The notes beneath the pieces are model-generated. The model was not told the origin of the DNA. It made no database searches and worked only from the letters and a program-made list of their open reading frames with translations. A program made the translations under genes and the position numbers. From NCBI RefSeq assembly GCF_038967635.1, contig NZ_CP152413.1:1240001-1304000 (forward strand): 64,000 nucleotides of DNA, written 5' to 3'. Shown here piece by piece: positions 13,591 through 17,986 of the stretch (positions within the stretch are counted from its first letter, which is position 1; every line of letters begins with the position of its first letter). Source of the DNA: Bradyrhizobium sp. B124 (lineage in GTDB: Bacteria; Pseudomonadota; Alphaproteobacteria; Rhizobiales; Xanthobacteraceae).

Positions 13591-16500
13591 CTACAGCGTC
13601 TGCACGTCGACCACGCCCGCGACCGCCTTGATCGCGCCGGCGATCTGCGGCGAGACCTTGTAGCGGCCGGGCAGCTTCATCTCGACCTCGGTTTCGAGGT
13701 CCAGCATCATCACCAGCGAGACGTCGCCATCGGCGCCAGCCGCGGGTGGCGGCGCGGAGGCCGGCTTCACCGCTGGTGCCTTTGCGGAAGCGCCCGGGGC
13801 GGCCGCGGCGTCCGGCATGTTGAGCCGGCGTGCGATCGAATCCAGCGGCTTGGTGTCGCGCACGAAGATCCGCAGACCCTTTTGCGTCTTGGCAGCGGCG
13901 TGATCCAGCGGCTCGGCGTGCAGCACCCTCGCCCGTACATCCTCACCCTGCAGCTCGGCGCCGAGCTGCAGCAGCACGGCCGCGCCGGGCTCCAGCACAT
14001 CGCGGTACTGCGCGAGGCCCTCGGAGAACAACACCGCCTCGAAATGGCCGGTCGGATCCGACAGGCCCATGATGCCCATCTTGTTGCCGGTCTTGGTGCG
14101 CCGCTCCATGCGCGACACCACGGTTGCCGCGACCTTGCCCGCTGTCGCGCCGGTCTTCACCGCACGCGAGAACTCCGCCCAGGATTGCACGCGCAGCCGC
14201 TTCAGCGCGGTCGCGTAGTCGTCGAGCGGATGACCCGACAGGAAGAAGCCGATCGCATCATATTCGCGCCGCAGCCGGTCCGCGGGCAGCCATGGCTCGA
14301 CCTGCGGCAGCATGATGCTGGGCGCATCCGGAGCGCTGCCGAACATGTCGTTCTGGCCCGAGGTTGCCGCCTCGTGGCTGCGCTGGCAGGCGGCCAGGAT
14401 CGCATCGGCTCCGGCGAACACGCGGGCCCGGTTCGGGTCCAGCGTGTCGAACGCGCCGGCCGCCGCAAGGCTTTCGATGATCCGCTTGTTGACGGCGCGC
14501 GGGCTCACCCTTGCTGCGAAATCGGCGAGCGAGGTGAAGGCGCCCTTCCTGTTGCGCTCCTCGATGATCTGCTCCACCGCCTGGATGCCGACACCCTTCA
14601 GCGCGGCGAGCGCGTAGTAGATCGTGTTGCCGCTGACCTCGAAGGTCGGGCCGGAGCGATTGATGTTGGGCGCTTCGACCTTGATGCCGAGCCGCTGCGC
14701 CTCGGAGCGGAATTCGGAGAGCTTGTCGGTGTTGTTGAGTTCGAGCGTCATCGACGCAGCGAGGAACTCGACCGGGTAATGCGCCTTCATATAGGCGGTG
14801 TGGTACGACACCAGCGCATAGGCCGCCGCGTGGCTCTTGTTGAAGCCGTAGTCGGCGAACTTGGCGAGCAGCTCGAAGATCGTCTCCGCCTGCCCCTTCC
14901 CAACGCCGTTCTTCATCGCGCCGGCGACGAAGATGTCGCGCTGCTTGTCCATTTCGGCGCGGATCTTCTTGCCCATCGCGCGGCGCAGCAGGTCGGCCTG
15001 GCCGAGCGAATAGCCCGCCATCTGCTGCGCGATCTGCATCACCTGTTCCTGATAGATGATGACGCCGAAGGTCTCCTTCAGGATCGGCTCCAGGATCGGA
15101 TGCAGATATTCCGACTCCTCATCGCCGTGCTTGCGCGCGCAATAGGTCGGGATGTTCGCCATCGGGCCCGGGCGATACAGCGCCACCAGCGCGATGATGT
15201 CCTCGAAGCGGTCCGGCCGCATGTCGATCAGCGCGCGCCGCATGCCCTGGCTTTCCACCTGGAACACGCCGACGACGTCGCCCCGGGCCAGCATCTGGTA
15301 ACTCGGCGCATCGTCGATCGGCAGCGTCGCGAGATCGACGTGCACATCGCGCTGCTTGAGCAGCTTGACCGCGACATCGAGCACCGTCAGCGTCTTGAGG
15401 CCGAGGAAGTCGAACTTCACGAGGCCGGCCGGCTCGACCCATTTCATGTTGAACTGGGTGACCGGCATGTCCGATTTCGGATCGCGGTACATCGGCACCA
15501 GCTCGCTCAGCGGCCGGTCGCCGATCACGATACCGGCAGCGTGGGTCGAGGCGTGGCGCGTCAGGCCCTCGAGGCGCTGCGCGATGTCGAACGCACGCGC
15601 CACCACCGGATCCTCGTCGCGGAACGCCTGTAGCTTGGGCTCGCCTTCGATCGCCTGCGCCAGCGTCACGGGAGCCGCGGGGTTCTGCGGCACCAGCTTG
15701 GTCAGCTTGTCGACCTGCCCGTACGGCATCTGCAGCACGCGCCCGACGTCGCGCAGCACGCCGCGCGCCTGCAGCGTACCGAAGGTGATGATCTGCGCCA
15801 CCTGGTCGCGGCCGTAGCGTTCCTGCACGTACTGGATCACCTCGCCGCGGCGGTCCTGGCAGAAGTCGATGTCGAAATCCGGCATCGAGACGCGCTCTGG
15901 ATTGAGGAAGCGCTCGAACAGCAGGGCGAAGCGCATCGGATCGAGGTCGGTGATGGTGAGCACCCAGGCGACCAGTGAGCCCGCACCGGAGCCGCGGCCC
16001 GGTCCGACCGGAATGCCCTGCGCCTTCGCCCATTTGATGAAGTCCGAGACGATCAGGAAGTAGCCCGCATATTTCATGCGGGTGATGACGTCGAGCTCGA
16101 AAGCCAGTCGCTTGCTGTAGTCCTCCTCGGTCATTCCCGGCGAGAGACCGTGCACCCGCAGGCGGTTGGCGAGCCCCTCCTCGGCCTGGCGCTTCAGCTC
16201 GGCGGCTTCGTCCGCGGCGGCATCGGAGCTGGCGGCGGCGCCGACCGTGAAGAACGGCAGGATCGGCTTGCGGGTCTTCGGCCGGAACGAGCAGCGCTCG
16301 GCGATCTCCAGCGTCGAGGCCAGCGCCTCCGGAATATCGGCAAACAGCACCGCCATTTCCGCGCGGGTCTTGAAGCGGTGATCCGGGGTCAGCTGCTCGC
16401 GGTTGGTCTCGGCGATCAAGTGGCCGCCGGCGATGCACAGCAGCGCATCATGCGATTCGTAGTCGTCACTGCTGGCGAAATACGGCTCGTTGGTCGCAAC

Positions 16501-17115
16501 CAGCGGCAGGCCCTTGCTGTAGGCGAGATCGATCAGACCGCCCTCGGTGCGGCGCTCCTTGTCGATGCCGTGGCGTTGCAATTCGATGTAGAGACGATCG
16601 CCGAACAGACTCGCCAGGCGTTCGCAGCGGGTCGCGGCCAGCGCGGCCTGCTCGGCGCGCAGCGCCAGCGCGATCGGCCCGTCGGGACCACCGGTCAGCG
16701 CGATCAGATCCTCGGCGTCGTCGGTGAGCCAGTCGAGCTTGATGTGCGGGGTCTGGTTGACCGGTGTCTCCAGGAACGCCCGCGAGTTCAGCCGCATCAG
16801 GCTGCGGTAGCCGCGCTCGCGGGCCGCCAGCAGCACGATTCGCGTCGGCCCCGTCGTCGCCAGGATGCTCCGCGTATTGGGGTCGACATCGCCGAAATCC
16901 ACCGCCAGCTCGCAGCCGACGATCGGCTGGATGCCGTAGCCGGCCATCTTGTCGGAGAATTCCAGCGCCCCGAACATGTTGTCGGTGTCGGTGAGCGCCA
17001 GCGCCGGCTGGCGGTCGGCCTTGGCGAGCTCGCCGAGCTTGGCGATCTTGATCGAGCCCTTCAGCAGCGAATAGGCGGAATGGACGTGAAGATGAACGAA
17101 TCCGGCATTCGGCAT
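13591..17115 (-). CDS. dnaE: DNA polymerase III alpha subunit (replicative DnaE1 type)
   Basis: Catalytic subunit of the replicative polymerase. 1174 residues. The N-terminal PHP domain starts FVHLHVHSAYSLLKG with the metal-type HLHVHS motif. The polymerase palm carries the catalytic acids in PDFDIDFCQDRRGEV, preceded by GPGRGSGAGSLVAWVL. Thumb and fingers include SFRDEDP-like and VSYHTAYMKAHYPVEFLAA segments; a helix-hairpin-helix region follows (LKGVGIQAVEQII), then an OB-fold near residue 1000 and a C-terminal tau-binding region. It is the replicative type rather than error-prone DnaE2/ImuC: the order, length and absence of imuA/imuB neighbours all agree. Its promoter must lie in 17116-17305. 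Confidence 0.96.
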   Translation of the reverse strand: MPNAGFVHLHVHSAYSLLKGSIKIAKLGELAKADRQPALALTDTDNMFGALEFSDKMAGYGIQPIVGCELAVDFGDVDPNTRSILATTGPTRIVLLAARERGYRSLMRLNSRAFLETPVNQTPHIKLDWLTDDAEDLIALTGGPDGPIALALRAEQAALAATRCERLASLFGDRLYIELQRHGIDKERRTEGGLIDLAYSKGLPLVATNEPYFASSDDYESHDALLCIAGGHLIAETNREQLTPDHRFKTRAEMAVLFADIPEALASTLEIAERCSFRPKTRKPILPFFTVGAAASSDAAADEAAELKRQAEEGLANRLRVHGLSPGMTEEDYSKRLAFELDVITRMKYAGYFLIVSDFIKWAKAQGIPVGPGRGSGAGSLVAWVLTITDLDPMRFALLFERFLNPERVSMPDFDIDFCQDRRGEVIQYVQERYGRDQVAQIITFGTLQARGVLRDVGRVLQMPYGQVDKLTKLVPQNPAAPVTLAQAIEGEPKLQAFRDEDPVVARAFDIAQRLEGLTRHASTHAAGIVIGDRPLSELVPMYRDPKSDMPVTQFNMKWVEPAGLVKFDFLGLKTLTVLDVAVKLLKQRDVHVDLATLPIDDAPSYQMLARGDVVGVFQVESQGMRRALIDMRPDRFEDIIALVALYRPGPMANIPTYCARKHGDEESEYLHPILEPILKETFGVIIYQEQVMQIAQQMAGYSLGQADLLRRAMGKKIRAEMDKQRDIFVAGAMKNGVGKGQAETIFELLAKFADYGFNKSHAAAYALVSYHTAYMKAHYPVEFLAASMTLELNNTDKLSEFRSEAQRLGIKVEAPNINRSGPTFEVSGNTIYYALAALKGVGIQAVEQIIEERNRKGAFTSLADFAARVSPRAVNKRIIESLAAAGAFDTLDPNRARVFAGADAILAACQRSHEAATSGQNDMFGSAPDAPSIMLPQVEPWLPADRLRREYDAIGFFLSGHPLDDYATALKRLRVQSWAEFSRAVKTGATAGKVAATVVSRMERRTKTGNKMGIMGLSDPTGHFEAVLFSEGLAQYRDVLEPGAAVLLQLGAELQGEDVRARVLHAEPLDHAAAKTQKGLRIFVRDTKPLDSIARRLNMPDAAAAPGASAKAPAVKPASAPPPAAGADGDVSLVMMLDLETEVEMKLPGRYKVSPQIAGAIKAVAGVVDVQTL

Positions 17116-17213
17116 GGCTGCTCGGGGGTCTCTTGAAGGCAGGGATGGCGCGAGTGCCCAAGCCGGAGCTCGAAAGCATCAGACCCGACTCGCATCCCCA
17201 TCGTGGGGCCTCG

Positions 17214-17254
17214 GCCCTGCCAAGTCCACGCCGAACACGGCGTGGCGGCAGGGC
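17214..17254. repeat. long two-part hairpin between dnaE and the SOS microprotein gene
   Basis: Outer stem GCCCTGCC (17214-17221) with GGCAGGGC (17247-17254), inner stem CCACGCCG (17226-17233) with CGGCGTGG (17238-17245) and an AACA loop. Sixteen perfect pairs. No strong T-run follows on the minus strand. It could end or stabilise the small transcript above it, or fold in the dnaE leader. Confidence 0.6.
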
Positions 17255-17305
17255 GTCCCGCTTTTCCCCAGAAGCAACCTATGCCCCTGTCCCTGCGGGC
17301 ACATT

Positions 17306-17404
17306 TCAGAACTGGGTGATCAGCTGGGCCCAAACCGCGATCATCCCGACGAACAGCGTGATCGATGCCAGCGCTGCAGCTTCCTGCACGAAAATCTTCA
17401 ACAT
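17306..17404 (-). CDS. 32-residue membrane microprotein under predicted LexA control
   Basis: A very short gene: MLKIFVQEAAALASITLFVG followed by 12 residues ending WAQLITQF. One hydrophobic helix spans about residues 9-30, with an acidic residue at position 8 and a Trp near the far end, so a single-pass inner-membrane peptide is expected. A GGAGA ribosome-binding sequence lies about 9 bases before the ATG. A good promoter with two LexA boxes stands directly upstream (17424-17466). Size, topology and control resemble SidA, the 29-residue SOS-induced division inhibitor of Caulobacter; sequence homology is not shown, so the role is inference. The gene reads toward dnaE. Confidence 0.75.
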   Translation of the reverse strand: MLKIFVQEAAALASITLFVGMIAVWAQLITQF

Positions 17405-17423
17405 GGCCGCTCTCCGTGAACTG

Positions 17424-17466
17424 GAACATATGAAGAACATTGTTCCTTTTTTGTTCTCAGAGTCAA
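17424..17466 (-). promoter_or_regulatory. promoter with two LexA (SOS) boxes
   Basis: Two direct-repeat boxes of the alphaproteobacterial LexA type: GAAC-N7-GAAC at 17424-17438 and GTTC-N7-GTTC at 17442-17456. On the minus strand a -35 TTGACT (17461-17466) and -10 ACAATG (17438-17443) are 17 bases apart, so one box fills the spacer and the other covers the start site. Repression by LexA and release after DNA damage are predicted. Confidence 0.8.
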
Positions 17467-17517
17467 GCGAGGGTAGTGGGTCAGTTTGAAAGCTGACCGC
17501 GAAAGAAAATCCCTTGG

Positions 17518-17646
17518 TTAATCGTGGCGGGAGCTGGCAGCGCCTCTAGTTCTATTCTCCAGTAGCCAGCCCTGCGACTTCGCGCGCGCCCATTCCAGCG
17601 CTTCATCCCTGCTCTGAAAGCCGAAGACGCTATCGACCTTTAGCAC
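17518..17646 (-). pseudogene. fragment of a small gene (C-terminal part only)
   Basis: A GTG-started frame of 42 codons, MLKVDSVFGFQSRDEALEWA then RAKSQGWLLENRTRG. The 'F.FQSRDEA..WA...S..WL' pattern looks like the C-terminal end of a small rhizobial protein whose N-terminal half is missing. It follows the decayed gene at 17660-17852. No good ribosome-binding site is visible. Most likely a remnant; a functional short protein is not excluded. Confidence 0.35.
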
Positions 17647-17659
17647 CTGCCCTGGCGAT

Positions 17660-17852
17660 CTACGCGACGTTCTTTGTAAGGTTTGCCACCGTCACCCTGC
17701 CGCCCTTGACGCCGCCCAGCTTGCCACGATGGACGGCAGCCAGGTCTTTGCGCTCTTCCTCCGGCGTAGGATCGCGGTCAGGCGCCTCGCCCGTAGCAAT
17801 ATCAATGATCCGCTTGGCGAGCTGGTTGGGCCTCTGGGGCGTTTAGGGTCAT
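17660..17852 (-). pseudogene. frameshifted small 'KGG'-type basic protein gene
   Basis: The codons read NQLAKRIIDIATGEAPDRDP then TPEEERKDLAAVHRGKLGG and VKGGRVTVANLTKNVA before a TAG. This is the layout of small rhizobial proteins of form 'KRP.DPNQLAK.IIDIATGE...PTPEE..KD.AAV..G..GG..GG..RA..LT'. The matching N-terminus (PKRPRG) lies in another frame, so an indel near 17830 has split the gene, and the usual C-terminal IAKKAA tail follows after the stop. The ATG at 17852 overlaps the stop of the upstream 45-codon gene (ATGA), which shows it was once translationally coupled. Confidence 0.55.
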
Positions 17853-17986
17853 TTGTGCGATTTTTTATGCGCCACGATGGTTTGGACGACGTCATCGTCA
17901 TCAGCATCGAAGGCCAAGTAACCAATGACCATCCATCCGGCGCACACTCCGAAAATGACCAAGGCCGCTTTTAGCCACCGTCCCAT
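17849..17986 (-). CDS. small single-pass membrane protein, unknown function
   Basis: 45 residues: MGRWLKAALVIFGVCAGWMV, then IGYLAFDADDDDVVQTIVAH and a Lys/His tail KKSHK. A positive N-terminus followed by about 20 hydrophobic residues predicts one membrane helix, with an acidic DADDDD patch just after it. The stop overlaps the start of the decayed KGG-type gene, supporting a real two-gene unit in the past. The ribosome-binding site is weak. I recognise no family. Confidence 0.45.
   Translation of the reverse strand: MGRWLKAALVIFGVCAGWMVIGYLAFDADDDDVVQTIVAHKKSHK

Follow-up and report, generated by a model that had tools for sequence, protein, structure and literature searches.

To our knowledge, the way in which bacteria without SulA arrest division after DNA damage has been worked out in few species. 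The Caulobacter protein SidA, 29 residues long, is an established inhibitor of division that targets FtsW (PMC4211646) and is under LexA control (PMC12700426). A second Caulobacter protein, DidA, is also a small, damage-induced, single-helix division inhibitor. It differs from SidA in having 71 residues, in being SOS-independent and activated by DriD, in binding FtsN, and in being encoded at another locus (CCNA_03212) (PMC4211646).

YneA of Bacillus subtilis (PMC13396833) and SosA of Staphylococcus (PMC6851548) are likewise SOS-induced membrane division inhibitors, and YneA acts on FtsW (PMC13396833). According to their published descriptions, which set them apart from the peptide studied here, both are longer and have parts outside the membrane, an extended region in the case of SosA. 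The part of YneA outside the membrane is of the LysM type. The SOS regulon of E. coli also includes short hydrophobic peptides, among them the small single-helix peptide DinQ (PMC3567139). Peptides of this type are toxic and are controlled by antisense RNA. TisB is another short hydrophobic, SOS-controlled peptide of E. coli.

We found a gene that resembles sidA in a 64,000-nucleotide stretch of the Bradyrhizobium sp. B124 genome (the whole stretch analysed, here called the window). An open reading frame (ORF) of 32 codons plus TGA on the minus strand (17306..17404, ATG at 17404), recognized by sequence reading, family matches and purifying selection, encodes the product MLKIFVQEAAALASITLFVGMIAVWAQLITQF. 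Residues 9-32 are uncharged and constitute a candidate for a single membrane helix. The product is thus similar to SidA in length (32 versus 29 residues) and, judged from its sequence, in having one helix; in both, the hydrophobic stretch follows a short charged start. The ribosome-binding site GGAGAG (17410..17415, minus strand) lies ahead of the ATG. The host peptide is not DidA: it has 32 residues and its promoter contains LexA-type boxes. An alternative start that would give 44 residues (ATG at 17440) was rejected because this ATG is inside the operator and has no ribosome site, and because the distances from box to ATG in relatives (12, 13, 14, 15, 17 nt and others) keep no single frame.

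Searches of Pfam, NCBIfam and PDB sequences with the peptide gave no match. The sequence-only reading had held that short genes such as this one are missed by annotation. That was only partly so: versions with the longer start are recorded in databases, and among the 120 matches listed of 463 they are unnamed or called 'hypothetical protein'. No terminator was found near the ORF in a terminator scan. Another ORF, of 42 codons (MLKVDSVFGFQSRDEALEWARAKSQGWLLENRTRGAASSRHD; 17518-17646, minus strand), lies just upstream of the promoter of the sidA-like gene.

The promoter region contains two LexA-type boxes in opposed orientation. Box 1 (GAACAAAAAAGGAAC; 17442..17456, minus strand) is in the promoter spacer, and box 2 (GTTCTTCATATGTTC; 17424..17438, minus strand) follows it after 3 nt. 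The -35-like hexamer TTGACT (17461..17466, minus strand) and the -10-like hexamer ACAATG (17438..17443, minus strand) are separated by 17 nt. ACAATG overlaps both boxes and is the consensus in relatives; a consensus promoter scan favours AACAAT over it, with a 16-nt spacer (9/12). The ATG of the small ORF is 19 nt past the second box.

We found that the double box is informative and that single boxes are not. The host genome searched was one contig of 9,169,800 bases. It contains 112+104 boxes of the form GAAC-N7-GAAC, versus 99+118 for the reversed pattern, and the window contains 2 versus 1.65 expected. Because there is no enrichment over the reversed pattern, a single box is uninformative, and single boxes were dropped as evidence. 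In contrast, the pair GAAC-N7-GAAC-N(0-12)-GTTC-N7-GTTC has a single location in the 9.17 Mb, and the reversed control has none. The best of the three LexA-domain genes in the genome is 31 kb away, and a box lies 155 nt ahead of its own ATG.

The peptide is conserved in the family of the host. Of 198 family genomes, 152, representing 39 of 47 genera, have a match to it at E<=1, and the other 46 have none at this threshold. We collected 70 loci and kept 66, after dropping three second matches without boxes and away from dnaE (L062, L063 and L064) and a second contig copy from one genome (L065, G004). One of the dropped matches, L062 (G140:C1:2803263-2803352; MIRLMAKEVAALLSLLAFCGMISVWAMVLS), may be a paralog or a chance match. 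All 66 ORF sequences are distinct, with no stops over 29 codons. Differences at codon positions 1, 2 and 3 were 0.268, 0.105 and 0.514, respectively, and pN/pS was 0.290 when all pairs were taken together and 0.105 for the 171 close pairs. The peptide is under purifying selection. Six residues are invariant among 39 aligned family peptides: M1, E8, L12, L17, F18 and W25.

The control elements are conserved as well. Two or more boxes were found in 56 of the 66 peptide-matched loci, one box in 8, and none in 2 (L004 and L018, where the peptide is retained but no strict box is found). The sequence-only reading had proposed seeking the same gene together with its boxes in relatives, and this combination is what most of these loci contain. 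The exact double box with N3 spacing is present in 50 of 66 relatives, and in 46 of these 50 the distance from box to ATG is 12-30 nt. Of the 64 loci with a box, 59 have TTGAC no more than 18 nt ahead of the first one, versus 9 of 1279 control windows. In 65 of the 66 loci, GGAG, GAGG or AGGA lies 4-17 nt ahead of the start.

The claim that two LexA boxes fill a TTGACT-N17-ACAATG promoter ahead of a 32-codon gene with a good ribosome site is confirmed in every element. The arrangement is far beyond chance, because the double box is unique in the genome and because TTGAC, the N3-spaced double box and the ribosome site are kept in relatives.

We located SidA of Caulobacter by genomic place, since the literature searched gave no sequence for it. 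In the parts of that literature retrieved there was no SidA sequence and no statement that sidA adjoins dnaE in strain NA1000. Caulobacter sidA is CCNA_02004 (PMC10769358) and dnaE is CC1926 (PMC1839093). These two tags belong to different numberings. We take sidA to be CC1927. A gene for LpxI is situated next to the window, and its relative in the PDB, 4ggm, pointed to other Caulobacteraceae and, at 100% identity, to C. vibrioides DSM 9893; 80 loci were kept. We searched 16 of the 80 for dnaE and found it in all 16, and each of these loci also has a small ORF of similar kind immediately before dnaE.

In C. vibrioides DSM 9893 (L257), the frame opens 11 codons earlier, and an inner ATG preceded by GGAGG gives 29 residues. 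This ORF is just upstream of dnaE and behind LexA-type boxes, the same order as in the window. Judged by species, length, LexA-type boxes and the gene order that we presume, the 29-residue peptide is SidA, in a strain other than NA1000.

Strict boxes were present in 9 of the 16 Caulobacteraceae loci, and 7 had one-mismatch boxes only. Two boxes with at most one mismatch and starts 16-18 nt apart were found in 16 of 16, versus 1 of 3200 mononucleotide shuffles. The operators differ in detail. The host has two perfect opposed boxes; C. vibrioides has three that all point the same way, one of them strict and two with one mismatch. The paired boxes of L253-L268 (Caulobacter and Phenylobacterium) are also in the same orientation, whereas those of the host's family are opposed, with starts 18 nt apart.

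We found that genomic place worked better than sequence for tracing the gene. A class-wide profile search of 385 genomes with the family alignment alone gave nothing convincing outside the order. The 66 family loci were selected by peptide match and so cannot reveal loss of the peptide; a survey by place is a fairer test. Among the order genomes, 110 had a match, and we took the regions upstream of dnaE in 60 of them, which represent 44 families (f1, f20 and f37 are not included; the last two were viewed separately). We asked for a strict box within 600 nt of dnaE and for a hydrophobic ORF of 22-50 residues starting 5-160 nt after the box.

A strict box was found in 31 of the 60 loci. The ORF followed the box in 27 of these 31, versus 4.9% in shuffles, and any such ORF was present in 9 of 29 unboxed loci (Fisher 1.4e-5). 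Of the four boxed loci outside this count, L277, L315 and L316 have a similar ORF further off, as judged by eye, and L295 has none. At L271, L285 and L304 the ORF counted is not the most SidA-like one, and a better one also follows the box. The sequence-only reading had named boxes kept with a lost reading frame as a result that would speak against it; the 27 of 31 strict-box loci that keep a small membrane ORF do not show this pattern. One locus from another family (L286; G218, f22) has an opposed double box with starts 18 nt apart, like that of the host's family, before a short hydrophobic ORF.

Counted by family, 20 of the 44 other families in the order have a box and a small membrane ORF upstream of dnaE. 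In a sample of the class (40 of 178 genomes with a dnaE match), the ORF was present in 10 of 13 boxed loci versus 3 of 27 unboxed loci (Fisher 7e-5; shuffles 2.0%). No strict box was found upstream of dnaE in 29 of 60 order samples and 27 of 40 class samples. From these counts, the arrangement of box, ORF and dnaE is widespread but not universal.

We compared the peptides by scoring them with a family profile against column-shuffled peptides. Fifteen Caulobacteraceae peptides (from the 16 loci, one identical peptide omitted) gave p 0.0045, all at the same one-residue offset. The C. vibrioides peptide alone gave p 0.054 with this family-only profile. A broader profile combined the family with 15 of 24 peptides from other families of the order that passed p<=0.002 (the other 9 had p>0.002); its construction involved no Caulobacteraceae sequences. 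With the broader profile, none of 5000 shuffles scored as well as the Caulobacteraceae peptides (z 6.8), and the C. vibrioides peptide scored 10.1 (p 0.0005). None of 16 control membrane segments, taken from three proteins encoded in the window, scored above 0.2; the lowest p values among them were 0.007 and 0.048. Six of eight class-sample peptides had p<=0.003; L130 (0.064) and L132 (0.39) failed.

In an ungapped alignment, the window peptide is identical to C. vibrioides SidA at 9 of 28 residues. The proposal of a SidA-like division checkpoint candidate gains support here, in that the gene occupies the same place as the one for the 29-residue peptide of C. vibrioides and the Caulobacteraceae peptides align in register. 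The view that the window gene is a sidA ortholog is well supported by these comparisons. No SidA protein outside Caulobacter appears among the literature matches listed, and one match to 'SidA' in a Bradyrhizobium paper proved to be the statistical term Sidak. The primary 2011 paper may hold a remark on wider conservation.

The host genome encodes both FtsW and LexA. Three substitutions in Caulobacter FtsW act as suppressors: A31K is a strong suppressor of SidA overproduction, and F145L and A246T each work against SidA as well as DidA (PMC4211646). These residues, A31, F145 and A246, align with A24, F137 and A238 of host FtsW when the C. vibrioides start is chosen to match the published numbering (PMC4211646). 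Since the two FtsW proteins are identical at 169 of 364 sites overall, the three shared residues are weak evidence. A 2026 paper models SidA on FtsW helix 7, not with high confidence (PMC13396833).

A peptide of SidA ancestry could also have come to act on a different divisome target, such as FtsN or FtsI, in the Rhizobiales, which grow and divide unlike Caulobacter. SidA itself contacts FtsN in two-hybrid tests (PMC4211646), and the modest identity to SidA, with the family-invariant L17 and W25 absent there, would fit such a change. However, the family-invariant E8, L12 and F18 are all retained in C. vibrioides SidA, and at the three sites related to SidA the residues of host FtsW agree with those of Caulobacter FtsW. 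We regard a changed target as unlikely.

The regular position of the ORF next to dnaE could point to a different kind of function, in which the boxes and the ORF, as a leader peptide or upstream ORF, would tune dnaE after damage and the peptide would have no target. The dnaE gene (DNA polymerase III alpha; 13591..17115, minus strand) is a conserved neighbour and not part of the inhibitor. Its ATG is 190 nt beyond the stop of the small ORF, and nearly every family locus retrieved has the ORF ahead of dnaE. A GC-rich hairpin between the two (17205-17262, minus strand; approximately -38 kcal/mol) might also be taken to favour a leader. We gave it no weight because it has no T-run and because the hairpins between ORF and dnaE in 12 relatives that we folded are different and weaker. 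The gap between ORF and dnaE varies from approximately 100 to 1100 nt, and purifying selection acts on the amino-acid sequence. Moreover, L003 (G093) and L048 (G029) keep the ORF and double boxes with no dnaE within 1.5 kb downstream, and SidA is an established division inhibitor in Caulobacter (PMC4211646). These observations argue against a dnaE leader, which we consider highly improbable.

Two side observations concern these neighbours. At L003 and L048, nusG-like and RimK-like genes, named from ORF reading, are nearby instead of dnaE. Another gene for DNA polymerase III alpha, at G000:C1:8751907-8752674, may be the error-prone dnaE2.

A membrane toxin of the TisB/DinQ type, which would depolarise the inner membrane and slow metabolism without binding FtsW, would likewise be a small hydrophobic single-helix SOS peptide, but it is very hard to credit, as both sequence and place match SidA, there is no known antisense antitoxin because no known RNA family lies within 17000-17900 (no Rfam match at E<=1, a search that a new antisense RNA would escape), and the short distance from second box to ATG, here and in relatives, leaves scant room for a structured leader.

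We therefore return to SidA as the model. It is very probable that the host gene is a LexA-repressed sidA whose 32-residue peptide blocks septation through FtsW after damage; LexA binding, damage induction, membrane insertion, FtsW binding and division arrest are steps that we infer from the work in Caulobacter. In an undamaged cell, LexA on the opposed double operator would cover the promoter and keep the sidA-like gene off. After DNA damage, RecA would trigger self-cleavage of LexA, which would free the promoter. The 32-residue single-helix peptide would then insert in the inner membrane and bind FtsW in the assembled divisome, keeping the FtsW/FtsI/FtsN complex inactive. Septation would be delayed until repair is complete and LexA is back.

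With somewhat less assurance, we favour the view that SidA is an ancestral alphaproteobacterial SOS checkpoint peptide. It would have been fixed for a long time between a LexA operator and dnaE while its sequence diverged past the reach of normal sequence search, and the opposed double operator would be a tight off-switch in the lineage of the host.

A gene of approximately 30 codons that neither Pfam nor NCBIfam recognizes could be traced through its place and operator, and not by sequence alone. The natural set of diverged peptides flags positions of possible importance: E8, L12 and F18 are common to the family and SidA, and L17 and W25 are not. If the gene is sidA, then the same peptide switch would be testable in rhizobia and other Rhizobiales.
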